This document shows, in pieces, positions 1,342-48,154 of a stretch of DNA of 64,000 nucleotides. This stretch comes from a virus. Under the pieces are notes generated by a model. It made no database searches. It had not been told where the DNA came from and saw nothing but the letters and a program-made list of their open reading frames with translations. The stretch spans positions 1 through 64,000 of IMG/VR virus record IMGVR_UViG_3300035670_000022, one strand, 5' to 3'. Positions within the stretch are counted from its first letter, which is position 1; the number at the start of each line of letters is the position of its first letter. A program made the position numbers and the translations under genes.

Positions 1342-2202
1342 TCAAGATTTGGGTGAAATAGGTTTGACTGAGATGTAGTCTGCATATAGATCCTCGGCGG
1401 TGTAGTTATCAAGGTTCTTGATCAGGCACTTTCTAAATATGTTTAGTCCTGAGAGAATGGCGAAGTCTTGATTCTTGCGGCTATATCTCCCGTAAGGATC
1501 TATGGAAGATGTCGCCTGGTCGTTAAAACTAAATTGGGAGTGCCCAAAGTCAATCGCTTCTGGGATGGCTGACATGTTATCTGTGTTTAAGCAGCCATGC
1601 ACAAAACCAACGTCTTCCCATTGCTTCTGTAAAGCAGCGTAGTCAAGGACAATCTGTCTAAAAGACTCTAAGCGATTTTGACAGACCGGATAGTAAACAC
1701 TGAGACTATGCCACAGTTTATCAATGTCTTGGGGGTTGTGTCTGTAAACGTATTCAAACGTCCCAATACGAAAAGGACAGCTTCGACGAATGATGCTGGT
1801 TGCGTTATCTTCTCCGTGTTTATAGACTGCTATTGTGTTTTGCGTACGGATACCTAAACGCTGTAACTCTAGAGAGGTTCGAGCCTCGTTAATTGCAGAG
1901 GTAACTGAGTAGTTTCCCCTACCAAACTTTGTATAAGGTGTAGTAAAACCACCCTTCGCAATGTATACAGATTGGGCATCGTCTGCCACAGGATCTAGAC
2001 TGCAGTCATGGATGATAGCGGATCTGCCATCTCCTAAATCTTGATACTCTCCAAACTGTGTTCCACCATAGTTTAGACTCACCCCTGCTTTTAGCTGAGG
2101 GATAAAGGCAGGAGGTGGTTGGAGGTACACTAAGTTGTCCGTAGGGACGTCGAGCGTGGTTGACGTGGCAAGATTGCCGGGATAAAGACTCGGATACAGC
2201 AT
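1342..2202 (-). CDS. selO: Minimal SelO-family pseudokinase (protein AMPylase)
   Basis: SelO (YdiU/UPF0061) proteins have a kinase fold with inverted ATP orientation and transfer AMP to Ser/Thr/Tyr of target proteins. Visible SelO signatures, in order, are: YGGTQFG..LGDGR at 45-60, the KGGFTTPY segment with Lys83, a helix Glu (E106), RIGTFEY at 145-151, VGFVHG..NTDNMS at 198-211 with D208/N209, and the IDFG metal-binding motif at 217-220 (D218). The RYSRKNQ element at 239-245 matches the end of the family core. Every key position I know of is kept, so it should bind ATP. It has 286 residues against about 480 in bacterial SelO; the C-terminal region is missing. A motif copy sits 22 nt upstream. 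Family assignment is strong; the target is unknown. Confidence 0.88.
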   Translation of the reverse strand: MLYPSLYPGNLATSTTLDVPTDNLVYLQPPPAFIPQLKAGVSLNYGGTQFGEYQDLGDGRSAIIHDCSLDPVADDAQSVYIAKGGFTTPYTKFGRGNYSVTSAINEARTSLELQRLGIRTQNTIAVYKHGEDNATSIIRRSCPFRIGTFEYVYRHNPQDIDKLWHSLSVYYPVCQNRLESFRQIVLDYAALQKQWEDVGFVHGCLNTDNMSAIPEAIDFGHSQFSFNDQATSSIDPYGRYSRKNQDFAILSGLNIFRKCLIKNLDNYTAEDLYADYISVKPISPKS

Positions 2203-3950: not shown

Positions 3951-4679
3951 TTAAAAAATTCGCGGTGGAGTCCCACACTCGTACAGCTTACCAGTCTTTG
4001 CCATAGACCAAGATGCCCCGTCATAGTCAAAGAATAGAGGTGCGGTGCCTTCTTTTAAAAGTTGATAGGCAATTTCTAGCGCCATTAAGGCTCCGGCAAA
4101 GTTAGCGTTTAATAACTGAGGTGTAGACACAGCCTCGACCCCACAGTTACCCCGGTTCTCATCTGTAGGTTCAGCATAGTTTTGGATGACATCAAAGGGA
4201 TGACACGGCGCAATTTTACCGGATATCCGCGTATACCATGAGCAGGTTGCTGTGTGATAGTCATTCCCGGGTAGAATCACGGCGTAGTTTAAGTGTGTAG
4301 GCAGGTTATCCAAAGCACGAATGATATCGTGTCGTGCTGCCTCTGAATCAACCCCTGGGATGATTAGAGAATCATAAGGAGAGTCTAAGGCGGCGGATAA
4401 CACGAAAGAGCCGAAGTTATCTTCTCGAACGTATAGCGGATAGGCTGTGGTTTTACACAGACAGCTAAGCCGCTCAGCCAACGCAACTGCTTTGTTTACG
4501 CCTAAATATTTAGGGTCAAACAGTTGTCGAGAGCTATTACTATCTTCGTACACATCACCATCGTAGATATGAACAGCGGGTTTGAATCCTTGGCTGTAGG
4601 TAACCAGTCGGATAATAGGCTCTGCCAGAATTGTGTCTAATCCACCGGCACCACAGAAAAAGATATTAGAGAATTTCAT
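3951..4679 (-). CDS. ThiF/E1-like activating enzyme (PRTRC-type)
   Basis: E1/ThiF enzymes adenylate the C-terminus of ubiquitin-like proteins. The Rossmann start has GAGG at 10-13. The segment DGDVYEDSNSSRQLF (40-54) matches the E1 signature D.D.V..SN..RQ, giving Asn48, Arg51 and Gln52, followed by Lys63. Asp111 in a strand-end 'PGVD' fits the Mg/ATP site. Cys179 in NCGVEAVSTPQLL lies where PRTRC ThiF proteins have CSLAEAL..QDLF and is the best candidate catalytic cysteine. The 242-residue length is that of a minimal E1. The ATG at 4679 has a good AGGAG site and overlaps the JAMM gene by 14 nt, so the two are co-translated. Confidence 0.85.
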   Translation of the reverse strand: MKFSNIFFCGAGGLDTILAEPIIRLVTYSQGFKPAVHIYDGDVYEDSNSSRQLFDPKYLGVNKAVALAERLSCLCKTTAYPLYVREDNFGSFVLSAALDSPYDSLIIPGVDSEAARHDIIRALDNLPTHLNYAVILPGNDYHTATCSWYTRISGKIAPCHPFDVIQNYAEPTDENRGNCGVEAVSTPQLLNANFAGALMALEIAYQLLKEGTAPLFFDYDGASWSMAKTGKLYECGTPPRIF

Positions 4680-5874
4680 TTGGACTCCTGAGTGAGTTGT
4701 ATAGGTTTAATGCGCTTTGGGGAAGATGCATCTCTAGGTCAAGTTCTTCTGCTAAAGCAGATGCGACTAGAGATACACCAGAAGGGTGACTTAACACGTC
4801 TTTTAATGCCATTTCGAAGTAGCTAAAGTCTTCACACAGTTCCATCATGTACTCTTCGTCGCCTGGCACAAGATCGTAGCAGTGGTCGACGGTAAGGTCT
4901 TTTTGACTTAGTTGTTGTTCAAGACTTTTCTTATACTTACTAACGTCGACATCTGCATTCACCGCCCAGTCAGGGTTGGCATACCAGTCAGCGTAGTCAT
5001 ACCCATCGTCCCAGTAATCAAAGTTCTTATAGGCGTGACTGCGGCGAGATACGTCACTTTGATTTGGTTTTGCAGTGTAATTGGCATAGTTGCCGTATAC
5101 ACCATAAGGGTAAGTGACTTGTCGTGCCGGCTCTTGTAATTTGATGTAGCTAAATACTTTCTCATTTAGCACGACGTCGCTAGTGTCTATATGAATGGTT
5201 TGAGCTTTAAGTTCTTTTTTGTCTACCGTCTTTAAAGAACTTAAGTCAACAATGCGACTGGGGGAGAAAACGTATCTATTCTTGTTTTGGACAATGGAGG
5301 CACATAGGTCTACGGTGTCTTCAGAGATACATCCCATGGTGCAATGGGCTCCTGAGATGTCGGTCTCATCTTTGGTATCTGTTGCAGACCAGAAAGCAGC
5401 CATAGTGTTGTGACTGTGCATTGTGCCACTTACGACCCAGTCTTCAATATCGTAGCTGTCGAATTCCTCCCCTGTAAGAATGTCTACACAGGGTACTCCT
5501 CCTGACTTAGTCCGCGCGGTGCGAACCGTTGCTGCTTGAATGATTTGCATAGGGGCTAATGCCCGCCAACGGTCAATGTGTTCTGTGTGTCGCATCAATA
5601 CGACTAGAACTTCATAGTCGGGTTCTTTAAGCGCAAAAGGCAGTTGAGTACTCTGCGCTCGATCATTACAGTAGTGTCGAAATAGGGAGACTATACCCTT
5701 AAAAAGAGTCAGCGGTATCTTTTCGAAATCTGGTTTAAGGGTAAAGTTGCTTAGCTCTTGAGGCTCATCTTCGCCTTTAGGGTCATCTACTTTTGCGTAG
5801 TAGCTCCCCCAGTAGCGGTTCTCTTTAAGAACATAGAAGCCTTTTTTACCCCGGAAGAATGGTTTTTTTTGCAT
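4666..5874 (-). CDS. JAMM/MPN+ (JAB) metalloprotease, PRTRC-A-like
   Basis: JAMM proteases cleave ubiquitin-like proteins after their C-terminus. With numbering from an in-frame GTG at 5883, MHSHNTMAAFWSATD gives the zinc motif H-x-H-x7-S-x2-D at His156, His158, Ser166 and Asp169; Glu91 at the end of an N-terminal strand is a plausible catalytic base. Residues ~200-400 are an extension with a Tyr/Asp/Trp-rich stretch near 280-310 that looks disordered. I prefer the ATG at 5874 because AGGAG lies about 9 nt upstream; the GTG overlaps the previous stop (GTGA). It is coupled to both neighbours, the E2-like gene upstream and E1 downstream. Confidence 0.85.
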   Translation of the reverse strand: MQKKPFFRGKKGFYVLKENRYWGSYYAKVDDPKGEDEPQELSNFTLKPDFEKIPLTLFKGIVSLFRHYCNDRAQSTQLPFALKEPDYEVLVVLMRHTEHIDRWRALAPMQIIQAATVRTARTKSGGVPCVDILTGEEFDSYDIEDWVVSGTMHSHNTMAAFWSATDTKDETDISGAHCTMGCISEDTVDLCASIVQNKNRYVFSPSRIVDLSSLKTVDKKELKAQTIHIDTSDVVLNEKVFSYIKLQEPARQVTYPYGVYGNYANYTAKPNQSDVSRRSHAYKNFDYWDDGYDYADWYANPDWAVNADVDVSKYKKSLEQQLSQKDLTVDHCYDLVPGDEEYMMELCEDFSYFEMALKDVLSHPSGVSLVASALAEELDLEMHLPQSALNLYNSLRSPNEIL

Positions 5875-5879
5875 AATGT

Positions 5880-7427
5880 TCACTCCTCGAAGTATGCGTC
5901 ATCGTCTTCGTCATCGTCGTCATCGTCGTCTTCGTCATCGTCGTTCTCTTCGTCATAGTCTTCGTCATAGTCGTCATCATCTTCCTCTTCCACATTTTCA
6001 GCGGAGGTTAGAATGTCTTCGTAAATAGGAGAGTAAAAGCAGCCAGTAGCTTCTCTTAGTTCTTCTAGGTCGACGTAGACTATTTCTCCCTTACTCAAAG
6101 GACTATCGATTGTTGGGAGCTTAATTGCTTTTGTCTTGGTGTTTTGTTTAGGGTATTCTAAAAGCCACAGAATATTGACTTTACTTGTTCTTTCTAGCCT
6201 GTATAGCACCAAACCGCGTAAGCATACGTCTTCGTTACCTGTGACGATGACATTCAGCGGCTCATTCACGTTCTCTAAACAAAGGTGTTTCTCTTGTGCG
6301 GTTTGCAGTCTCTGTTTGGATACGTCGGATATATCGCTGTAGTCTTTGTAGTCTAAGTAATATGCTGTTAATTCTGTTTGGGCTACATTGCACCCAAATA
6401 AGTGTTGGTGATAGTCGTACAATGGATAGGGTATCGGACACCTACTGACTTTAGAGCCATCTTCAAAGACATATTCTTTAAGTGCTTTATTTCTAGCAAC
6501 TTGGTCTTCACCAAAGACTGGATATTGAAGAAGGTTGTTGGCATTTAAGTCTATGTACTTTGTGACCTTGTTCTCTTCATGGCGAATGTCAGCATTAAAA
6601 GGAAGGCTAAAGAACAACTCAGATGCTTCTGACAACATGGTAGGGGGGTACATTGTCCCCCAACATATAGTGGCATCGCTAAACACGTTGGTGATGCGCA
6701 TTCCTTTAAGCTTTCTTTCTGACCGCGCGTCCAAAAGTCCGTAGCATTTACGTGTACATGCTTTTGGTATTGTAATATGTAAGCACGAATACCACGCATG
6801 CTTGGGTAGAGTTATCTTTGTGTATCTTGGCACAGATCTTTCTAATTTGCAGTTATCAGAAGTATATCCGGTACACCAGGGAACAGAATCTAAAATTCGT
6901 TTAACGTCCTGTCTGGTAGCAAGATGGATAGCTAGAATAACTGAGATCTTTTTTCTTATGCGGTCGGATATACCAGACTCCTGTAATGCTCTATGTAGTG
7001 GGAAGTTTGCTTTGATTTCAGGAATCATTAAACTGGCGGCGCAGCACAGCTCTTCATCTGACTTATCCTGCAACGCTGTAATAACAGCGTAATAGAGTTT
7101 ATCGAAGTAGCAATCGTATTCCTTTGGCGGGTCTATCTCTTTTTCTAGATTTATTTCGTCCCATTTTATGGATACAAAATGATAACGGATTTTTTCTGCG
7201 TAACTTAGTGTGGACTTCTTATCTAAGGTTCCACTGTATAACGGACAGTGAACGCATTCATGCTCTATAAACATTTTCTCACTCGTTTCGTCAGTGAGCT
7301 CCACCTCGATAGTTTTTTCTGGGCAAAGTGCGTAGAGGTTTAAATTTACATTCTCAGAGTCGGATGTAGGATTAATCTGTAGGTAGACTTTCTGAGTCTC
7401 TTTTGGAAGTAATTCGACTGTAAACAT
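5880..7427 (-). CDS. PRTRC-B/E2-like protein with acidic tail
   Basis: This 515-residue protein lies between the Ubl and JAMM genes where PRTRC cassettes carry protein B, regarded as an E2-like fold. The segment ITNVFSDATICWG (245-257) resembles the 'NV..dG.vC.G' strand-turn of that family, with Cys255 as a candidate thioester residue. Several Cys pairs (around 58-61, 205, 224-228) may bind metal. The last ~37 residues are almost only Asp/Glu, encoded by a trinucleotide-repeat-like stretch at 5884-5995. No promoter is visible: a strong terminator ends 11 nt before its ATG. The E2 role is inferred from position and one motif. Confidence 0.5.
   Translation of the reverse strand: MFTVELLPKETQKVYLQINPTSDSENVNLNLYALCPEKTIEVELTDETSEKMFIEHECVHCPLYSGTLDKKSTLSYAEKIRYHFVSIKWDEINLEKEIDPPKEYDCYFDKLYYAVITALQDKSDEELCCAASLMIPEIKANFPLHRALQESGISDRIRKKISVILAIHLATRQDVKRILDSVPWCTGYTSDNCKLERSVPRYTKITLPKHAWYSCLHITIPKACTRKCYGLLDARSERKLKGMRITNVFSDATICWGTMYPPTMLSEASELFFSLPFNADIRHEENKVTKYIDLNANNLLQYPVFGEDQVARNKALKEYVFEDGSKVSRCPIPYPLYDYHQHLFGCNVAQTELTAYYLDYKDYSDISDVSKQRLQTAQEKHLCLENVNEPLNVIVTGNEDVCLRGLVLYRLERTSKVNILWLLEYPKQNTKTKAIKLPTIDSPLSKGEIVYVDLEELREATGCFYSPIYEDILTSAENVEEEDDDDYDEDYDEENDDDEDDDDDDDEDDDAYFEE
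5884..5995 (-). repeat. GAY/GAR triplet tract encoding acidic tail
   Basis: On the + strand the tract is built of tcg/tca/tct triplets such as tcatcgtcgtcatcg. It encodes the Asp/Glu tail at the C-terminus of the PRTRC-B-like protein. Such tracts can change length by slippage; the tail may mimic DNA or act as a docking tail. Confidence 0.7.
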
Positions 7428-7428
7428 A

Positions 7429-7474
7429 AAATATAAAATTCAAGCTGTGTCTCCAAGTAGAGACACAGCTTGAA
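7429..7474 (-). terminator. Strong intrinsic terminator between Ubl and PRTRC-B-like genes
   Basis: A perfect 15-bp stem (7439-7453 with 7460-7474) and 6-nt loop is followed on the minus strand by TTTTATATTTT. It starts 20 nt after the Ubl stop and ends directly before the next ATG (7427). Read-through would then set the ratio of Ubl to the rest of the cassette. Confidence 0.85.
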
Positions 7475-7494
7475 CTGTGAACGGTGGATAAGGA

Positions 7495-7869
7495 TTAGGC
7501 TTTAGAGTTACCTGTAACGAGCAGGTTGTATACCTCTCCTGCTTGGGGGATCGTCGTTGAGTCTACGTATTGACCGCTGTGGCGAAAACGAATACGGGAA
7601 ACGTCGTTGATCCCGAGAGAGTCTGCGGCGCTGGAAAGAATGGAGTGTAGCTCAGTATTGTCGGCTGCAACAACGACCTCTTCGGTACCGAAGATAAGAG
7701 TTACCCCTTCTAGAGGATCAATGCTAGAAACAGCTTCTACATCGTCGCTGAAGTCTTCTTCAAACACTTCTTGGGTAACAGCAACTTCTTCTGCGGCGGG
7801 CTGCTCAACAGGGATATTGCTCAAAATAACTTGGTCTTCTGCGGAAGCGGTTTCGAAAATCGTACTCAT
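7495..7869 (-). CDS. Ubiquitin-like beta-grasp protein (PRTRC-C-like)
   Basis: The first ~52 residues are acidic and low in hydrophobics, so probably disordered. Residues 55-119 fit a beta-grasp fold: strand GVTLIFG, a second strand EVVVAA, helix TELHSILSSAADSLG, then strands RIRFRHSG and VYNLLVTG. The protein ends ...VTG-NSKA, with Gly120 four residues from the end, so exposing a glycine terminus would need trimming, plausibly by the JAMM protease. It is the first gene of the cassette (Ubl, B-like, JAMM, E1) and is followed by a strong terminator, which suggests it is made in excess. The fold is predicted by eye. Confidence 0.68.
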   Translation of the reverse strand: MSTIFETASAEDQVILSNIPVEQPAAEEVAVTQEVFEEDFSDDVEAVSSIDPLEGVTLIFGTEEVVVAADNTELHSILSSAADSLGINDVSRIRFRHSGQYVDSTTIPQAGEVYNLLVTGNSKA

Positions 7870-7908
7870 AGTTGTAAACCTGGGAATAGTGTAAATACTT
7901 GGTTGATT

Positions 7909-7971
7909 CTTTTACTCTTCTCTGTTTTTACTCTGACTCAGTCAAGCCTTAGAAACAGAGAAGAGTACAAG
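7909..7971. promoter_or_regulatory. Inverted pair of the dispersed motif
   Basis: A motif copy at 7909-7927 (minus-strand orientation) faces a second at 7953-7971 in the opposite orientation. The two pair over 19 bp with one mismatch, around a 25-nt centre that contains TGACTCAGTCA. The left copy is 40 nt upstream of the Ubl start. It could be a cruciform or RNA hairpin, a terminator for 7980-8738, or a paired protein-binding site. Confidence 0.55.
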
Positions 7972-7979
7972 GGACTGGG

Positions 7980-8738
7980 TTATACAGCTTTTTGTAGCAT
8001 CTGCTTTAGGTCTTCGGCAGTTACATACTTGCTGTTGACGCTGTGACCAATCTCGACTTGGTCGGCTTGAATATCTAAAATGTGTTTTTCTTCGAGCAGG
8101 CTCAATATATCGTCTATGTTTTCTTTTACCTGTGTAGGGCTATAGCTTCCACAATTATCAATAAAATAGGCGCATAGATCATCTACCGTATAGACAGGAT
8201 AATACTGATTCTCTTTAAGCAGCCCTGGTAGCACATTCAGTTGAAAGAACTGTGCCATCTCGGTAAGATTGACGCTAAGTTTATTGTTTAGGTCATTATT
8301 TAGGTACTGTTCTGAGAAGCGTAAGAAGCACCCTTCCGGTTCTTCTAGAATGTTCAACTCTACCAACTCTTGTCTTAGACAATAGCCGATCCAGTTCTTT
8401 TCTTTTTCAGTAAGTATCGTGTCTTTTTCAATTTCGTCTACGACTTGTTGTCTTTTGAACTGATTGCTGCCTACTTTAGCCCTAACTTGGGGCATCACTT
8501 GGTTAATCAAGTAAGTAATAATTTCGGTGCGCCCCATAGGCTCAAACCCTAACACAGACCCTATACCTACAGGGCGGGGGTCTACTTCAGCAGCAGGAAC
8601 CAAAGACAGCTTGGGGGAGTCGTCTGTTGCCTGCATGCTTTGAATAATTCTGGTTGCTTCTTGCACTAAGGACATGTCTCTTAGCTTGGCAGCTTCTTCT
8701 AGTGCTTCCCAGAGTTTGTCCTTGATTAAATTTGACAT
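7980..8738 (-). CDS. Hypothetical protein, 252 aa
   Basis: A mostly helical soluble protein. Residues 60-135 contain helices spaced as in a winged-helix or four-helix domain, and a second helical region covers 150-250. No catalytic motif, cysteine cluster or membrane segment is seen. It lies just upstream of the Ubl cassette on the same strand, separated by the inverted motif pair, so it could be a substrate, regulator or unrelated neighbour. I do not recognise the family. Confidence 0.55.
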   Translation of the reverse strand: MSNLIKDKLWEALEEAAKLRDMSLVQEATRIIQSMQATDDSPKLSLVPAAEVDPRPVGIGSVLGFEPMGRTEIITYLINQVMPQVRAKVGSNQFKRQQVVDEIEKDTILTEKEKNWIGYCLRQELVELNILEEPEGCFLRFSEQYLNNDLNNKLSVNLTEMAQFFQLNVLPGLLKENQYYPVYTVDDLCAYFIDNCGSYSPTQVKENIDDILSLLEEKHILDIQADQVEIGHSVNSKYVTAEDLKQMLQKAV

Positions 8739-8775
8739 CGCTTTATCGACCCCTAACTGTGTATATTTGCGTGTG

Positions 8776-8797
8776 AAAGGGGAGCCATGCCCCCTTT
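8776..8797 (-). terminator. Hairpin, possible terminator
   Basis: AAAGGGG pairs with CCCCTTT around an 8-nt loop in the gap between 8805-9200 and 7980-8738. The minus-strand 3' side has only three T's, so termination would be weak. Confidence 0.45.
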
Positions 8798-8804
8798 ATG
8801 AGTG

Positions 8805-9200
8805 TTAGTTTACAAACGGGTTTGCTTCTTCGTATGAGGTTCCTTTTGGAATTGTAGGTAGTTGAACGACTTCAGGGCAATTACTCATAACATAGCTCTT
8901 ACCTGTCTGGATATAGGTCTTTCGAGCCGCCCGTCGACTAGGATCTTTGAGCAGGATTTTGCCGACAGTTGTAGCCTGACCGACATTGTTAATCAAATAG
9001 TTCCAAGAGGCTTCTTCAAATACCTCTTCTTTTGTCGCTGCTCCGTTTTCATGGGCTGTACAAATAGAAGCCCCTAGGTTTTCAGCAGAGTTTATGACAA
9101 TGTTCTGAGCATCAGGTTCCGCTTTGACTAAGAAGGCAGTAGCACTCAGACCAATAACAGCAGCAGTAGCAGCGGAAGTGTATACGAGAAATTTCTTCAT
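8805..9200 (-). CDS. Secreted small protein with signal peptide
   Basis: Residues 1-27 form a clear signal peptide: Lys-Lys, then a hydrophobic Ala/Val/Leu core ending FLVKAEP with a possible cut after Ala27. The mature part is ~104 residues with two cysteines (Cys47, Cys109) that could pair in the periplasm. No enzymatic motif is seen. An exported early protein may alter the envelope, for instance in superinfection exclusion, but that is only inference. A motif copy lies 44 nt upstream of the ATG. Confidence 0.6.
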   Translation of the reverse strand: MKKFLVYTSAATAAVIGLSATAFLVKAEPDAQNIVINSAENLGASICTAHENGAATKEEVFEEASWNYLINNVGQATTVGKILLKDPSRRAARKTYIQTGKSYVMSNCPEVVQLPTIPKGTSYEEANPFVN

Positions 9201-9243
9201 AGATTTGTAATCAAGGAGAAGTGTTTTTTGACTTTTTGTTTGT

Positions 9244-9263
9244 CTTTTACTCTTCTCTGTTTT
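9244..9263 (-). promoter_or_regulatory. Dispersed motif copy
   Basis: An exact copy in minus-strand orientation, 44 nt before the ATG of the secreted protein and downstream of the integrase stop (9295). Confidence 0.5.
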
Positions 9264-9294
9264 TGCTTGACGTATTTCTTGCCGTTAAGTTCCC

Positions 9295-10422
9295 TTAGAT
9301 TATCGGGGGAACGTAGTCACGGGTAACGCCTGCATATTCAGAGAGAATAGTCTGGGGGGAGTTGCCACAGTATTTAGCAATATCAGTTAGACTCTCTCCA
9401 GATCGCATCAATAGAGTAATGCAACAATGTCTCATTTGATAGGGATTGCGATACCGGATATCCGGCAACTCCGCGAGGACGTTCTTCCAGGCGTTGGAGT
9501 TAAAGCTATCCCAGTTGAGTCTTGCTCCCCTAGAGCTATAAAAGACATAGGGGCGGGAGCCGGTCAACCGACGTTGTTCTTCTAGCGCTTCTTTAACCTT
9601 TTGGTTAATTAGGATATGTCGGCTTGCTTGAGTCTTGAGCCGTTTTGTATCTTTTCGTTGAACATACGAGTTACGAAAAGTGATGGAATCCTCACTAACG
9701 TCAGACCACTTTAGTCCTGCTGCCTCCGACGGTCGACAACCGACAAAGAACAAGAACGTGACTAAAGGAGCATATTTGCTGTAAGTCTTGCTATTCTTGA
9801 ATGCCTCTATTATTCTATCCCTCTCCTCTTTAGTAAACGGATCGGGCTCTTCATGCTCTTGGGTACGTCTAACATTTCTGCTGACCTCTGTGCTGATCTG
9901 CTTAAAGACGTTGGTCTCTATTAAGTTAGACCCTACAGCCCATTCGCAGCATTCGCTAAGGCGCATTAATATCTTTCGCGCTTGTTTAGGAGGCTTGTGT
10001 TCAAGCAGCCAGTCTCTTATCTCTAAAGCTGAATCTAACGAGGTAGATGGCAATAAAGGAAGCACGTTACCGACTCTACGCTTATAGTCAAGCTCTAGAC
10101 TGACTTTAGCCAAACCCAGTCTTGACTTATACTCAAAGAATTTTTTCCAGAGATCTATTAATGTCGGATTGGGTTTCTCTTTTTTGTTATTCTTAGCAGT
10201 GTTTTTCTTGTTGCTTTTGGGTTTGTATCTTTCTAGGGTATGATCAAAGTCTCCTTTTTCTAAGTCAAGATCGATCTGGCGTATCACGAACTCCGCGTGA
10301 CGCATGTGGGCACGATCACCATATTTACCGTTTTTTACAGGGGAAAACACATAGCGTTTTCCGTCGACTTGAATGCGGATGCGAATGCCGCCACTGTTAT
10401 TCTCCAGTTTAGGGAGAGACAT
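9295..10422 (-). CDS. int: Tyrosine recombinase / phage integrase
   Basis: The 375-residue protein has an N-terminal arm-binding-like region, a core-binding SAM-like helical domain (~85-180) and a catalytic domain (~195-375). Active-site residues are visible: Arg230 in GCRPSEAAGL, Lys263, the YQMRH box with Arg331, Asn354 in GNS (often His), and the nucleophile Tyr363 in SEYAG. This is a full-length, intact integrase. Its start overlaps one repeat pair of the putative attP, next to a tRNA-His 3' segment, so site-specific integration into a host tRNA-His gene is the likely role. Confidence 0.93.
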   Translation of the reverse strand: MSLPKLENNSGGIRIRIQVDGKRYVFSPVKNGKYGDRAHMRHAEFVIRQIDLDLEKGDFDHTLERYKPKSNKKNTAKNNKKEKPNPTLIDLWKKFFEYKSRLGLAKVSLELDYKRRVGNVLPLLPSTSLDSALEIRDWLLEHKPPKQARKILMRLSECCEWAVGSNLIETNVFKQISTEVSRNVRRTQEHEEPDPFTKEERDRIIEAFKNSKTYSKYAPLVTFLFFVGCRPSEAAGLKWSDVSEDSITFRNSYVQRKDTKRLKTQASRHILINQKVKEALEEQRRLTGSRPYVFYSSRGARLNWDSFNSNAWKNVLAELPDIRYRNPYQMRHCCITLLMRSGESLTDIAKYCGNSPQTILSEYAGVTRDYVPPII

Positions 10423-10442
10423 GGTCTGAAACTGGTCTAGAA
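10421..10442 (-). repeat. Paired 11-bp repeats (arm-type site candidate)
   Basis: Two TGGTCT units 11 bp apart overlap the integrase start codon. The 22 bases match 10741-10762 at 18 positions. Paired short direct repeats flanking an att core are typical of integrase arm sites; a third inverted unit (CTTAGACC) lies at 10453-10460. Confidence 0.5.
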
Positions 10443-10550
10443 TTTTTCCGATCTTAGACCGTTAACGTTAAAGATGCAACCCTATTTTTTAATTTTTTAT
10501 TAAGCTGGACTCCTTTGCTAGTAGGCGTTTGACACACTTTAATAAGTGAG

Positions 10551-10597
10551 GGCGAACGATGGGATTCGAACCCACGAGTGGAGGAACCACAATCCTC
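10551..10597 (-). tRNA. 3' part of tRNA-His(GTG), att core (not a complete tRNA)
   Basis: On the minus strand, from 10597: anticodon stem GAGGA, loop TTGTGGT with anticodon GTG, stem TCCTC, variable CACTC, T-stem GTGGG, loop TTCGAAT, stem CCCAT, acceptor strand CGTTCGC and discriminator C. All stems pair. The matching 5' half (acceptor GCGAACG and D-arm) is absent upstream. C73 is the hallmark of tRNA-His. A bare 3' half beside an integrase is the standard signature of attP identity with a host tRNA gene. Confidence 0.85.
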
Positions 10598-10740
10598 TGA
10601 TGTAATTCTTTTCCTACCTAGACTAGAGGCCTATCTCAATAATCTACAAAAATCGAGCTTTATCAGTTGCTGTGTTTAGAGTGCCAGATAAGCTGCAAAT
10701 GATGTAGGTGACTTTTTAAATTTGTGCACGCTTTTTTAAG

Positions 10741-10762
10741 ATGGTCTAAAAATGGTCTAAAT
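10741..10762 (-). repeat. Paired 11-bp repeats (second arm-type candidate)
   Basis: ATGGTCTAAAA is followed by ATGGTCTAAAT. It has the same unit and spacing as the pair at the integrase start, 320 bp away on the other side of the tRNA fragment. Confidence 0.5.
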
Positions 10763-10782
10763 TTTAGGTGTACACATATAAG

Positions 10783-12342
10783 CTAATTGGATTTATCTTG
10801 GGCAAAAGGCTGCCCAGTGTTGCTGCATTGAACAGCCCGTTCTAACTCCAAGGCTAAGTAAGCTAAATGCACGGCTTTTATGGTGGGATGCATAAGAGCT
10901 ATTTCTCGACATATTTGTAGAGGGTTACAGAAATTAAGTGGATAAAATTTCTGATCGAGGTAACTACCTTTTGGGCAAGTGTGAGTAACTTCTATGCCGT
11001 TTTCTTTTAAAGATATGACAAAGTTACCAACGTCATCATGTAAGACGTGTTTAAATTGATACTGCTCGTTGATTGTTTTTTTAGCTTTCTCTAAACTCCA
11101 CTCATAAATATGAGCCGCTTGAGAAATGCAGACTAGGTCACCACAAGAGAGGTAAATATTTTTATTGAGTGTTCTTATCTGTTGACATACTGTTTCTTGT
11201 ACATAACGAAGCGCTGTCAGATTACTGCAGTAGGCTGTGTATATGTCGTGGCTGCGAAAGGTAGCTGTCAATATTAATTTGCCTTTAAAGATCTTTAGGT
11301 TAATTTGGGTTAGACAGGGAGGCTGCGCTGACCCAGCGTCGTTCTGCGGAATCCATAGAGAGACGACTGCTCGGTTGCTATCAGGGTCTTCAATCAAGGT
11401 TCGAACAGCACTTTCTACTTGATTTATCGGATTAAATATTCTTTCGCCATAGGTATACTCAACATCTTTATCTTCTTTGGGGTGCAGCATATCGTAACAA
11501 TACTCTAAGATACTCTCTCGACTAGTCACAAGCCAATCAGGAGTGTATAGCTCTTCAGGCTCTGCCTTAATAACAGAAATAAGATTTAGCAACTCCCGCC
11601 GCTTGCCGACGTTTTGTCCTGTGTAGTATACGGCGTGCATCGCCTTAACCCACGTATGGGCTATTGTTTCTGCCTCTACTCTGACTCCGTTGTCCTGTCC
11701 TGTAAATACCTGAGGGCTAGACTTTTTAATCAAATAAACCTTCGGGGCTTGCTCTTTTGGTTTAGACTCTTCTTGTGGATTAGCTTCGATATGCTCGTAA
11801 AAACTTTTTAGGTCAGTCCAGTAATGAAAGCTGCTGCATAAACTTTGAAGGTCTTGTTCGGTAAAGATGCCATCTACCTCTCCTATTACTTGTTTAGAGG
11901 AGAGGATATCCCACCGCTGTTCATACTCACTCACTTTACTATATACATAATATCCCCTCAATAGCTGTTTCAGCGCCTCACTGCCTTTAGCTAGCCGATC
12001 CTGTTTAGTGCAATTCAGAATATGAATTGGGTACAAGACTGGATTGGCAACTAGGTTAGCTACCAGAGGGCTTAATCCACAGAACGGGTTGTAGAGACTA
12101 CCAATGCAACCGTAGTCTATATTGCTAGACTCTAGCTTTGTTTGCACTCTTTCTTTAGGTGTCCAGCCTGTAACAATGATGGTGTTGCCTTTGCCTAAAA
12201 GCAGATCTTCTTTGCGGTATAGCGGTTGGTAAGACATTAGAGGTGAATAATATGAACACTTGGGGGAAAGGTCGGGATGTTCTCTGCCTTGTCCGACGTT
12301 TGGACAGCCTGTAACATCGTAGGAGTTACCCACAGTAAACAC
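10783..12342 (-). CDS. thyA: Thymidylate synthase with N-terminal DUF4346-like domain
   Basis: ThyA methylates dUMP to dTMP using methylene-THF. The catalytic domain (~225-519) shows YGERIF (298-303), Arg324, the nucleophile Cys343 in PPCLTQ, the RSHD dUMP-binding motif (363-366) and Asn374. The N-terminal ~130 residues contain YGCIGSLYNPFCGLSPLVANL and resemble the domain fused to thymidylate synthase in cyanobacteria and archaea (DUF4346, MtrA-like). At 519 residues it is about twice the size of a bare ThyA. The start is GTG at 12342. It stands with the ribonucleotide reductase genes in a nucleotide-synthesis block. A dUMP/dCMP hydroxymethylase is an alternative. Confidence 0.8.
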   Translation of the reverse strand: MFTVGNSYDVTGCPNVGQGREHPDLSPKCSYYSPLMSYQPLYRKEDLLLGKGNTIIVTGWTPKERVQTKLESSNIDYGCIGSLYNPFCGLSPLVANLVANPVLYPIHILNCTKQDRLAKGSEALKQLLRGYYVYSKVSEYEQRWDILSSKQVIGEVDGIFTEQDLQSLCSSFHYWTDLKSFYEHIEANPQEESKPKEQAPKVYLIKKSSPQVFTGQDNGVRVEAETIAHTWVKAMHAVYYTGQNVGKRRELLNLISVIKAEPEELYTPDWLVTSRESILEYCYDMLHPKEDKDVEYTYGERIFNPINQVESAVRTLIEDPDSNRAVVSLWIPQNDAGSAQPPCLTQINLKIFKGKLILTATFRSHDIYTAYCSNLTALRYVQETVCQQIRTLNKNIYLSCGDLVCISQAAHIYEWSLEKAKKTINEQYQFKHVLHDDVGNFVISLKENGIEVTHTCPKGSYLDQKFYPLNFCNPLQICREIALMHPTIKAVHLAYLALELERAVQCSNTGQPFAQDKSN

Positions 12343-31734: not shown

Positions 31735-32643
31735 TTAGTGTGACCAATAAGGAGCAATATCAATACCGGCTCGACCCTTAACTTTGGAGCCAAACGTTTT
31801 ATATACCTCTGTCTCGACTTGGCACATGATTTGGCTAGCTTGTTCTAAAATGTTCATCGTTTCTGGTTGTGTCTGCCATACCAGCTTAGTCCAGCAGCCG
31901 TCTTTGTTCTTTTTACTCTTCTCTGTGTTAATTTCTAAAGATCCAGGCAGTTCTATCAAAATTTCGTCGTGAATGACACCCACAATAAAGATGTTAGTGT
32001 CTTTAAACGTCTTACGAATGCGGATAGCAGCGTCTTTAGTAATAGAAGAAGCCAATCCTTGTACAGCGTGGTTCACTGCGCTTCTAGCTGGAGACTCTCC
32101 GGACCCTTTTGCATTTGACTCATCTACGTAGCGCCAAGCACCGTAATAGGGAGTGATAGCATATCCTCTAGCAGCCGCGATGTTACCAAAGTTTTGAGCC
32201 CAGCCGTGGAAGTTAGCGTAGGTTTTTTTGTGGTTTTCGACCCAGCCTTTGGCGACCTCTTCTTTGACGTAGTTGTTCTGGGAGATGGCAAGAGCGGTTG
32301 CCATAAAAATGATAGAGAAGTTTAACCCCTTCGCAAGTTTTCTATCACCACTGTTATCCGCTAACTCTCGCCACTGGTCTTCAGGTACGTCTTTATATCG
32401 TTCTGGATTGATACAATATACGGCACTTAAAGTGTGCATATCTGAGTATGGGTTGACATACTTTGTGCCATCAGGGCGAGTTAGGGTACTTTTCACCAGA
32501 AACACTTCTGACATAGATTTGTCAGCAGATATGACAGAAGCAATCTGCGCTTCTTGGTTAGAGAAGTCTAGACTCGCAAGAATTTTACCCTTAGGTGCTA
32601 CAAGTCCCATCCTCGGGCTTGCTAGCATTTTGATGTATCCCAC
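31735..32643 (-). CDS. Family A DNA polymerase, C-terminal palm/fingers part
   Basis: This ORF carries the polymerase active site: motif A as DFSNQEAQ (usually DYSQIELR), motif B as RKLAKGLNFSIIFM, and motif C as HDEILIE. It starts at GTG 32643 or ATG 32628 and lacks the exonuclease and thumb, which are encoded by the ORF at 32848-34257 in the same frame. The two must work as a two-subunit polymerase unless joined at RNA or protein level. A copy of the dispersed motif (31909-31929) lies inside it. Confidence 0.85.
   Translation of the reverse strand: MGYIKMLASPRMGLVAPKGKILASLDFSNQEAQIASVISADKSMSEVFLVKSTLTRPDGTKYVNPYSDMHTLSAVYCINPERYKDVPEDQWRELADNSGDRKLAKGLNFSIIFMATALAISQNNYVKEEVAKGWVENHKKTYANFHGWAQNFGNIAAARGYAITPYYGAWRYVDESNAKGSGESPARSAVNHAVQGLASSITKDAAIRIRKTFKDTNIFIVGVIHDEILIELPGSLEINTEKSKKNKDGCWTKLVWQTQPETMNILEQASQIMCQVETEVYKTFGSKVKGRAGIDIAPYWSH
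31909..31929 (-). promoter_or_regulatory. Dispersed motif copy inside polymerase gene
   Basis: AACACAGAGAAGAGTAAAAAG, two changes from the consensus, encodes NTEKSKK in the polymerase. It lies 178 nt upstream of the next gene start (31731), so it could serve the possible clamp gene. Confidence 0.35.
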
Positions 32644-32851
32644 GATTTAGCTCCTTTAGTCCTTTTTTTGTTAGTCGATAAGGCGCGCGTCCAACTATGC
32701 AGTCCTTGCGTCTCAGACTTTCTAGTAGAGCCACGGTCTTTTCATGGGAAAAGCCGCAGTCTACAGGAAAGCCTAGTTCTTTATCCTGGGGAAAGGCGCT
32801 AAGAACGAGATACTCTTCTTCACTTAGAGTGCTGAATCCGTATCCTTTCAA
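32591..32851 (-). CDS. Small winged-helix-like ORF between polymerase halves
   Basis: No ATG is present; a TTG at 32851 overlaps the TGA of the upstream polymerase ORF (TTGA), and another TTG lies at 32881. The protein (about 86 residues) has a helix, then FSHEKTVALLESLRRKDCIVGRAPYRLTKKG, the helix-turn-helix and wing pattern of winged-helix proteins. Its last 17 codons overlap the C-terminal polymerase ORF in another frame. It may be a real coupled gene or an insertion remnant. Confidence 0.5.
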   Translation of the reverse strand: MKGYGFSTLSEEEYLVLSAFPQDKELGFPVDCGFSHEKTVALLESLRRKDCIVGRAPYRLTKKGLKELNRGIHQNASKPEDGTCST

Positions 32852-34257
32852 AGCAGCACCTCCACACAAGTTGGATGCCAAGCATCCTCTTCTTTAATCT
32901 CTATCTCAACCGTGCTCCGTCCTGTGACCTGTTGAAGGTTCGGGCGCTGGCAGCTTGACCGCGAAGTAGCGGCTCCAATAGTCGTTAGAGAGTAATGAAT
33001 ACGACCAGTGACTGGATTGATATACTTCAGCAGATTCATTCCTTCTTGCTTGGTGTATTTTTTAAAGTCAACGATTTTAGCAATGATAGGAGATATCTCT
33101 TTAAGTCTTCCCATCTCAAACATCTCTAATTCGGAAAACAGGTCTTGTTCGTCTTCGTTAATCAGGATCTCTCCTAGACGTTCTTTACCAACGATGTTTC
33201 CTTCTTTATCTTCGCTTTGGTCTACGAAGAGTCTATCAATGATGTCTAGCAGTCGAGTTAGAGTCGCTTTCTGGGTGTTGTCAATTTGTTTCAGTTTAAG
33301 AGCGCGATTAACCGCTTCTAGGAGACCAGAGCTGCTTCTTAGCTTCTTTAGAGTATCAGGCGTAGGGACTAACTCTCCTGTCCAGTCTAAAATCGGCTCT
33401 TCAATCCCTAAGTCTATACAGAGTTCTGCGCCGAGTTGTTTAACTCGTTGGGATACTTCTTGTTGATAAGCCTCTAGCATCGGTTTAGAAACGCCGATGC
33501 CGCGATACTCTATCTCAGCGGCGACGACTACATACTGCAATTCTATCTCTAACAACCTTTCTGCCCCTAGCCCCCATTCTGCTTCGTTATTATTTGAACC
33601 TAGTAATGGGCTGTTAGGGAGCGGATTAGTAATGGCTGGGCGGAGAATGTTCTCTAAAGGGAACAGGTACTTTACGTCATTAGCGGCGTAGGTTACCTTC
33701 TCTGCCCACCACTCATTGTCTAGATTGCGGTGGCTTACAGGCAGATACCAGGTACTCTCCCTTAAGTCTTTTTTACCGCTAATGTGAACATTAAGATGTT
33801 CACGGCATAGGTCTGCGTAGGCATGCCCTGTAAACTGTGCCGCTTTCGACCCAGTCGCATTGCCTAACATCTTGCTATAAATCATCGTGTCTCGAATGTT
33901 CTCTGGCATAAAGCCGAAGGTTGATTGTAAAAACTTTAAATCATACCTGGCATTGTGCCAGAGAGTGTACTCGATGTTTAATAGCAGCTGCTTTAGCGGT
34001 TCAAAGTCAACTTGGTGCTCTTCGAGCCACAGAATGTCTAGCACATAGGGGATTGTCTTTTTTCCTTTTAGAATCAGAAGACTGATCTTAGCTGTGTGGG
34101 GGTCTAGAGCAGACCCCCCTTTACCCTCCCATTCAGGAAGACAATAAGTTTCGGTATCAGCAGCTAGGCAGGTTGACTGCCCTAAGACTCGCAGACAATC
34201 AAGATACTGTTGAGGTGTTGTTACATACTCAAACTTCAGTTTTTGATTAGTCGTCAT
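32848..34257 (-). CDS. Family A DNA polymerase, exonuclease and thumb part
   Basis: Residues 1-220 form a DEDDy proofreading exonuclease: ADTETY (motif I), LWHNARYDLKFLQ (II) and YAANDVKY (III with Tyr...Asp). The thumb and the start of the palm follow, ending with GRIHYSLTTIGAATSRSSCQRPNLQQV, the strand/loop that in intact enzymes leads directly to motif A. After PNLQQV about 25 unrelated residues precede the stop. The split therefore falls between the thumb and motif A. It overlaps the RecA-like gene by 11 nt. Confidence 0.88.
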   Translation of the reverse strand: MTTNQKLKFEYVTTPQQYLDCLRVLGQSTCLAADTETYCLPEWEGKGGSALDPHTAKISLLILKGKKTIPYVLDILWLEEHQVDFEPLKQLLLNIEYTLWHNARYDLKFLQSTFGFMPENIRDTMIYSKMLGNATGSKAAQFTGHAYADLCREHLNVHISGKKDLRESTWYLPVSHRNLDNEWWAEKVTYAANDVKYLFPLENILRPAITNPLPNSPLLGSNNNEAEWGLGAERLLEIELQYVVVAAEIEYRGIGVSKPMLEAYQQEVSQRVKQLGAELCIDLGIEEPILDWTGELVPTPDTLKKLRSSSGLLEAVNRALKLKQIDNTQKATLTRLLDIIDRLFVDQSEDKEGNIVGKERLGEILINEDEQDLFSELEMFEMGRLKEISPIIAKIVDFKKYTKQEGMNLLKYINPVTGRIHYSLTTIGAATSRSSCQRPNLQQVTGRSTVEIEIKEEDAWHPTCVEVLL

Positions 34258-47148: not shown

Positions 47149-47186
47149 AGCAGTGGATTCCCCTCCACTGCTTTATTATTTTTTTG
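47149..47186 (+). terminator. Strong intrinsic terminator before sigma gene
   Basis: AGCAGTGGA-TTCCCC-TCCACTGCT (9-bp stem, 47149-47172) is followed by TTATTATTTTTTT. It leaves only ~20 nt before the sigma-factor ATG (47207), so sigma expression must come from read-through or a promoter overlapping the hairpin. Confidence 0.85.
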
Positions 47187-47206
47187 TGTCGTTTGGTATT
47201 TCAACT

Positions 47207-48154
47207 ATGAGCAGCTACTACATCACCTCTAAGCGCGATGGATTTGGACAGTATCTTAATGAGATAGGTATGTATCCGACTCTAACTAAAGAGCAGGAGC
47301 AAGAGTACGGCAAGAAAATTCAAAAGATGATGCTTTTTAATAAGCTGCTAGAGTCAATACCTCTAGATAGCGCAGTGCAGCTAAAGGCTCAAGCCTGTGC
47401 GTGCTCTGTGCAGGAGTTTAATCTTGTTTATCGACATGGTGCTATCTCTCGAGACCGGATGTTAAAACACAACCTAAAGCTGGTTGTGCATATTGCTCGT
47501 CGGTATAACAACAGGGGTGTTGATTTGGAGGATCTTGTGCAAGAAGGTAGCGTTGGGCTGATGCGGGCGGTAGAGAAGTTTAACCCAGACCTAGGGTTTA
47601 AGTTTAGTACCTACGCTGGGTGGTGGATAAAACAATCAATTATTCGAGCTATTGCTAATACCTGTCGATCTATTCGTCTTCCTGTTCATATACATGATCT
47701 TCTAAATAAGATTCGTCGAGTTGAGCGGGATTTTTTTCAACAAACAGGAAGGACGCCTAAGTTGTCAGAAGTTGCTGACATCATTGGTGTACCTGCGGGT
47801 AAGATCAGTCGAGTCCAGCAACATTCTAAAAATGTGTGGAGTTTAGATATAGAGAGTTATGACTCAGATGACTCACCTTCGATTGAGGAGTCGTTTGTTA
47901 ATACGGTTGCTACTCAACAAGCTGAATATCTATTTGATATCCAGCATCTTACTGAGTCGATGTTACAGGAGTTGGACGAGTTGGAGCTGGCAGTAATGGT
48001 TCGTCGTTACGGATTAAACACCGGAATTAATCTGTCTTACCAGTCCATAGCTGATGAATTGGGTTTAAATACCCAAACAGTCAGAAAGATCAGTCTTGGC
48101 GCCTTTGAAAAGTTAAAGAACCACGTGGTTCAGTCTGGTATCTCCATGTTCTAA
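47207..48154 (+). CDS. Sigma-70 family RNA polymerase sigma factor (group 2-like)
   Basis: The ATG at 47207 is chosen because an in-frame GTG at 47153 lies inside the terminator. The 315-residue protein has region 1.2 (YLNEIGMYPTLTKEQEQEYGKKI), region 2 with NLKLVVHIARRYNNRGVDLEDLVQEG..GLMRAVEKFNPDLGFKFSTYAGWWIKQSIIRAI (2.1-2.4), region 3 and region 4 with SYQSIADELGLNTQTVRKISLGAFEKLK as helix-turn-helix. It resembles cyanobacterial group 2 sigma factors, but region 4.2 differs from primary sigmas. It could redirect host RNA polymerase to phage promoters. Its TAA directly abuts the stop of the convergent fibre gene. Confidence 0.92.
   Translation: MSSYYITSKRDGFGQYLNEIGMYPTLTKEQEQEYGKKIQKMMLFNKLLESIPLDSAVQLKAQACACSVQEFNLVYRHGAISRDRMLKHNLKLVVHIARRYNNRGVDLEDLVQEGSVGLMRAVEKFNPDLGFKFSTYAGWWIKQSIIRAIANTCRSIRLPVHIHDLLNKIRRVERDFFQQTGRTPKLSEVADIIGVPAGKISRVQQHSKNVWSLDIESYDSDDSPSIEESFVNTVATQQAEYLFDIQHLTESMLQELDELELAVMVRRYGLNTGINLSYQSIADELGLNTQTVRKISLGAFEKLKNHVVQSGISMF

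Follow-up and report, generated by a model that had tools for sequence, protein, structure and literature searches.

Two lines of work describe how cyanophages may enter host chromosomes. In T7-like cyanophages, an integrase and an attP site are required for integration at tRNA-Leu, yet no stable lysogens form (PMC8776855). For phages of the Ma-LMM01 type, lysogeny has been hypothesised, is unseen in the laboratory, and has been tied to an IS607-type serine recombinase (PMC5584929; PMC12642866). The genes proposed to serve lysogeny in Ma-LMM01 are this recombinase, transposases, and anti-repressors (PMC5584929), and field studies have sought the ability to form large prophages of this type through serine recombinase and transposase transcripts (PMC5584929, PMC12642866). 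Here, we analyzed 64,000 bases of viral DNA (the window; bases 1–64000 of a 155,913-base IMG/VR virus record) together with the remaining 91,913 bases of the record. We conclude with high confidence that one locus in the window is the attP site of a large myovirus-like cyanophage, with a functional tyrosine integrase acting at the host tRNA-His gene. All positions are those of the record, whose first base is also the first base of the window.

Results

Kind of phage and gene content

Among 50,697 phage records, the major capsid protein matched only Ma-LMM01-like Microcystis phages and the Microcoleus phage My-WqHQDG (27.7–28.7% identity). The sole phage-record matches of the tail sheath protein were again these phages, and capsid and sheath identities together span 23–29%. 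The presence of a contractile-tail sheath gene indicates a myovirus-like phage. Megablast of 25 kb against the phage records gave no match to any of them. The DNA polymerase belongs to family A (PF00476, DNA_pol_A), with the exonuclease domain in a neighbouring ORF, and the phage also encodes an RNR, a primase, helicases, a UvsX-like recombinase, and a sigma factor:

47153–48154, plus strand: sigma-70 factor of the phage, with regions 1.2, 2, 3, and 4

An earlier note on this DNA had credited the phage with its own polymerase, primase, RNR, and sigma factor, all of which were confirmed, and had treated it as a T4-like cyanophage. The latter assignment (Kyanoviridae) is ruled out because the capsid and sheath match the Ma-LMM01 group and My-WqHQDG and because the polymerase is of family A, not of the family B gp43 type. 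Judged by its capsid and sheath sequences, the phage is a distant relative of Microcystis phage Ma-LMM01, the homology of the two proteins supporting distant kinship and nothing closer. Close genome-wide kinship to the Ma-LMM01 group (Fukuivirus) is ruled out by the megablast result and by a capsid identity of 28%.

The record is a fragment whose right end lies inside an ORF, and no terminal repeat was found in it. Three giant ORFs are present, at 75453–88001 (4182 aa), 99630–111599 (3989 aa), and 145337–155911 (3,525 aa or more, cut off by the end of the contig). An alternative genetic code, considered for the ORF-poor right end, was ruled out because that region is the single last-named ORF. 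The family A polymerase is split across two ORFs, an exonuclease part and a palm part with a small ORF between them (31735–34257, minus strand), and matches to all three pieces keep their order in two relatives. Other genes of the window include one for a SelO-like protein adenylyltransferase (1342–2202, minus strand) and a ThiF (E1-like) gene adjoining a weakly JAB-peptidase-like gene (3951–5883, minus strand). Both members of this pair have homologues in three related records, and together they resemble the ubiquitin-like modification pairs of CBASS-type defence or counter-defence.

A tRNA-His 3' part beside a complete integrase gene

The locus comprises the following features:

9295–10422, minus strand: complete tyrosine integrase gene (int), 375 aa, with PF00589 and phrog_1 matches
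10423–10782, no strand: attP intergenic segment of 360 bases, enclosing the core and almost the whole of the two arm pairs
10549–10599, minus strand: attP core, 51/51 nt identical to the tRNA-His(GTG) gene of Arthrospira sp. PCC 9108 (CP066886.1) in its 3' part

The earlier note had described here 47 nt of a tRNA-His 3' half, from the anticodon stem to C73, a complete tyrosine integrase beside it, and two flanking pairs of 11-bp TGGTCT units. Each of these is real. The tRNA part is slightly longer than claimed: it starts two bases ahead of the anticodon stem, reaches C73 (position 10551), and extends 2 nt past it. Chance could not plausibly produce a 51-nt identity with a tRNA gene. When 84,980 species genomes were scanned for an exact 41-mer of the core, a single match was obtained, in Arthrospira sp. 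PCC 9108. In a second collection, three of 291 genomes from the same order contained an exact 50-mer, and matches with at most 3 mismatches were found in 32 genomes. Because the exact and near matches fall within one cyanobacterial order, the core is a cyanobacterial tRNA-His of that order. The comparison with cyanobacterial tRNA-His genes, which the note had proposed as a check, thus yields an Arthrospira-type cyanobacterium as a candidate host rather than an identification.

A partial tRNA was reported by cmscan at 10558–10617 (19.5 bits, below the gathering score). According to ARAGORN, neither the window nor the remaining 91.9 kb contains a complete tRNA, which excludes for this record the alternative of a complete tRNA elsewhere in the phage. 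The tRNA-His 3'-half pattern was absent from 2.9 million viral contigs, a set that may not include the phage's own record. When the 5' half of the Arthrospira tRNA-His was joined in silico to the phage core, ARAGORN recognised a complete tRNA-His, indicating that the tRNA would survive insertion.

Paired repeats on both sides of the core

Tyrosine integrases have arm-binding domains, and a site spacing near one helical turn is therefore expected. Three features of the segment may be such sites:

10421–10445, plus strand: predicted arm-type site pair 1, on the side of int, ATGGTCTGAAACTGGTCTAGAATTT, which overlaps the start codon and leader of that gene
10741–10765, plus strand: predicted arm-type site pair 2 (far side), ATGGTCTAAAAATGGTCTAAATTTT
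10454–10460, minus strand: single inverted GGTCTAA half-site between the core and arm 1, a weak candidate for a third arm site

The paired units TGGTCTnnnnnTGGTCT (TGGTCT-N5-TGGTCT) start at 10422 and 10742, and these are their sole two occurrences on either strand of the 155,913 bases. They bracket the tRNA-His core, one pair on each side. The two arm repeats are 25 nt each and 84% alike, so the earlier description needs the small correction that the arms reach 10445 and 10765. With a slightly longer pattern and one mismatch allowed, the window held 2 matches where 0.09 would be expected by chance, and none of 100 shuffles yielded as many. At the level of sequence, the TGGTCT pairs are thus putative arm-type binding sites flanking the core, and the spacing of their units, about one helical turn, is what arm-binding domains would be expected to need. 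Since the int-side pair lies over the start codon, it would allow the integrase to limit its own expression.

The integrase and its chromosomal relatives

Residues R230, K263, R331, and Y363 of the integrase are invariant in 31/31 aligned family members. A Tyr (Y328) occupies the position of the usual HxxR histidine and an Asn (N354) that of the usual His/Trp, and both substitutions are typical of the family in the sequences displayed. The int start codon lies 128 nt from the tRNA-His 3' half, on the same strand and with the tRNA part upstream. No close relatives of the integrase were found in IMG/VR. The best phage-borne matches are in Planktothrix phage PaV-LD and Leptolyngbya phages Lsp-JY17 and Lbo402-yong5 (30–33% identity, 89–96% coverage). 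Downstream of int, a 22-nt inverted repeat is present at 7909–7971, with its arm repeated (25 nt, 96%) at 9243–9267, just beyond the gene; these repeats are possible terminators or regulatory hairpins of the block described below.

We examined 30 of the best chromosomal integrase relatives, drawn from 388 genomes searched. In 22 of the 30, a complete tRNA gene (Phe, Thr, Arg, Cys, or Met) lies directly upstream of int, on the same strand in 22/22 and at an estimated distance of 169–292 nt. Exact 6-mers repeated 11 bp apart occurred at 23.6 per kb in these 22 gaps versus 0.72 in flanking control DNA (33-fold), and those 10 bp apart at 7.4 versus 0.62 per kb. Other spacings were nearly all near background, with smaller excesses at 9 and 20. 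The 11-bp enrichment indicates that the two unit pairs of the phage match the arm-site signature of the whole integrase family. It also offers a simple rule for recognising members of this family in cyanobacteria: the 3' end of a tRNA leads into tandem 11-bp arm units, after which int follows.

The phage integrase falls in a supported sub-clade with the integrases of two genomes, G291 and G008. Each lies in an element with an intact tRNA-Phe at one end and an identical, partial copy of it at the other; the element is 20.7 kb long with a direct repeat of 75 nt in G291 and 24.7 kb long with a direct repeat of 43 nt in G008. These repeats have the appearance of genuine attL/attR pairs, produced by enzymes closely related to the phage integrase. 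In both elements int adjoins the partial tRNA copy and not the intact tRNA, an orientation unlike that of the 22 others and one that varies within the sub-clade. Integrases located 30–86 kb from tRNA-His in G291, G008, G162, and G198 were considered as tRNA-His elements and rejected, their sites being tRNA-Phe or tRNA-Thr. The elements (L148 in G291, L152 in G008) encode large unknown proteins, with a DUF5906 gene in the G291 one, and with their exact att repeats they may be satellites or small prophages.

Altogether, the reading of the segment as attP, also made in the earlier note, is well supported because the core is an exact host-type tRNA 3' half, repeats flank it, the integrase is intact and in the proper geometry, and its close relatives are integrated at tRNA genes. 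From these sequence features, the attP–int module is very probably canonical and functional.

A lineage-specific block in a clade with few integrases

Capsid relatives are encoded on 39 IMG/VR contigs. A PF00589 search of 36 clade records (this record, 33 other virus records, Ma-LMM01, and My-WqHQDG) found a tyrosine integrase in 1/36, the record of this phage alone; many of the records are fragmentary, so integrases may be missed. The earlier note had held such equipment to be rare for T4-like cyanophages; the frame falls with the T4-like assignment, and the rarity stands within the phage's own clade. It is well supported that the phage appears equipped for insertion at the host tRNA-His gene, unlike the 35 related virus records checked. 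One related phage (L087, IMGVR_UViG_3300035681_000001; 189.8 kb) is syntenic and without a tyrosine integrase. Three clade capsid relatives (L101, L119, and L121) lie on contigs with IMG numbers like those of isolate genomes (2786546530, 2909739949, and 2515154092, respectively) and are possible proviruses of distant relatives.

The module lies in a block that differs from the surrounding genome in its distribution:

5880–12342, minus strand: lineage-specific block, genes 9–14, with int, attP, and the thymidylate synthase fusion; no match in three syntenic relatives (E 1e-6)
10783–12342, minus strand: thymidylate synthase + PterinBD-DUF4346 fusion gene, the next gene on the far side of attP, within the block

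The three relatives are syntenic with the phage across replication and structural genes, and because the block has no matches in them the module appears to have been acquired by this lineage alone, with small tRNA-targeting elements as a plausible source. The thymidylate synthase part matches the methanogen-type TIGR03283 below its cut-off. A DNA similarity of 5897–5990 to many genomes was set aside as a low-complexity repeat encoding an acidic tail.

This distribution bears on three other explanations. As the integrase is present in 1/36 clade records, the clade can do without the module, and the position of the module in a lineage-specific block would also suit a relic, that is, an integrase and attP inherited from an acquired element and now out of use. 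Disuse is expected to erode the ORF, the core, and the arms, and here all catalytic residues are present in an unbroken ORF, the core agrees at 51/51 positions with the tRNA of a living host, and neither arm pair is damaged; we therefore consider a relic very unlikely. The lack of the block in the syntenic relatives and the residence of the nearest integrases in 21–25 kb elements could further suggest that a smaller mobile element carrying int and attP was inserted into the phage, in which case attP would be the element's and not the phage's. However, the core and both arms are contiguous and unsplit and the record holds no second copy of the segment, which indicates that no element has integrated through this site. 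Gene direction and G+C (0.43) are also continuous between the block and the flanking phage genes, and we judge such an insertion highly improbable. An assembly chimera joining DNA of a cyanobacterial element to a phage contig would likewise explain a block missing from relatives and known from a single record. It would need two breakpoints around a complete module in DNA of uniform G+C and strand, and chromosomal DNA would be expected to show attL/attR, whereas attP is intact here; this explanation, too, we regard as highly improbable.

We thus retain the reading of a phage attP served by a functional integrase. In the mechanism that we propose, the integrase would bind the paired 11-bp arm sites that flank the core, and strand exchange would occur within the 51 bp shared with the 3' part of the host tRNA-His gene. 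One product, attL, would contain a tRNA restored by the 3' half that the phage brings, followed after 128 nt by int, and the other, attR, the leftover tRNA 3' half. The module would have been acquired within a Ma-LMM01-related clade that otherwise appears to be without tyrosine integrases. The analysis itself establishes the tRNA identity, the arm-like repeats, the intact catalytic residues, the in-silico restoration of the tRNA, and the behaviour of the integrase family; integration by this phage, arm binding, excision, and origin by acquisition are what we infer.

Lysogeny or transient integration

The genomes searched yielded neither an integrated copy of this phage nor its attL or attR, so the host junctions flanking the phage that the earlier note had suggested looking for did not appear there. 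Its statement that the phage can also integrate therefore holds for the equipment, integration itself being the step that we infer. No prophage was found with the capsid as query (291 genomes) or with the integrase as query (388 genomes of one order, a set that the exact-host strains possibly lie outside). Likewise, 20 kb of structural genes had no DNA match in 61 Arthrospira-family genomes (4 candidates per genome scored). Two weak capsid hits in cyanobacterial genomes (G090 and G145) had no run of phage genes nearby. Two candidates for a partial tRNA-His acting as attR were also rejected, the second tRNA-His in G296 being a complete divergent gene and that in G369 an ordinary tRNA-His. No repressor or excisionase was recognised by Pfam, PHROGs, or NCBIfam among the genes scanned, the scan being partial and most genes being of unknown function.

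An attP site and an integrase do not imply lysogeny, because T7-like cyanophages integrate without it (PMC8776855). The phage genome may be inserted transiently during an essentially lytic infection, with no stable prophage, a possibility that qualifies the attP reading and does not replace it. The T7-like precedent at tRNA-Leu (PMC8776855), the failure to recognise a repressor or to find a prophage in the genomes searched, and the fact that Ma-LMM01 lysogeny is unseen in the laboratory (PMC5584929) all point this way. Conversely, close relatives of the integrase do form integrated elements, though these are of 21–25 kb and not large phages, and a repressor may escape recognition among so many genes of unknown function. 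We give transient insertion without lysogeny a chance just short of even, and we see as possible, on balance doubtful, a Ma-LMM01-related lineage with a true regulated temperate cycle and a >155-kb prophage at tRNA-His; true lysogeny and transient integration come out about equally likely.

If the phage is truly temperate, this would be the first defined attP/attB for the Ma-LMM01-related clade, in which lysogeny has so far been inferred from expression of the IS607-type recombinase. The record supplies a sequence-defined attP, integrase, and attB in the wider clade, which makes integration testable by junction PCR or read searches in Arthrospira/Limnospira, Microcoleus, and related blooms.

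Comparison with known systems

P-SSP7 and S-TIP37 (T7-like; PMC8776855) resemble this phage in being cyanophages that look virulent and carry an integrase, together with an attP whose sequence is identical to part of a host tRNA gene. Their integration has been demonstrated, whereas that of this phage is predicted from sequence. They are podoviruses of marine unicellular hosts and use tRNA-Leu, whereas this phage exceeds 155 kb, has a sheath gene, and combines a tRNA-His core with paired 11-bp arm sites. The Ma-LMM01/MaMV-DC group (Fukuivirus) is similar in genome size, with capsid identities of 27.7–28.2% over 92% and a sheath identity of 24%; unlike this phage, Ma-LMM01 has no PF00589 match. 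The best capsid match (28.7%) is that of Microcoleus phage My-WqHQDG (OR578706), whose host group is filamentous, as is Arthrospira, and in whose 163-kb partial genome no integrase was found. PaV-LD, Lsp-JY17, and Lbo402-yong5 have records of 42–95 kb, versus 155.9 kb here, and the likeness to them concerns the integrase. The G291 and G008 elements are small (21–25 kb), sit at tRNA-Phe, and hold no homologues of the phage's other genes, but they have demonstrable attL/attR and share with the phage closely related integrases (39–43%), a tRNA 3'-half core, and arm units spaced by 10–11 bp.
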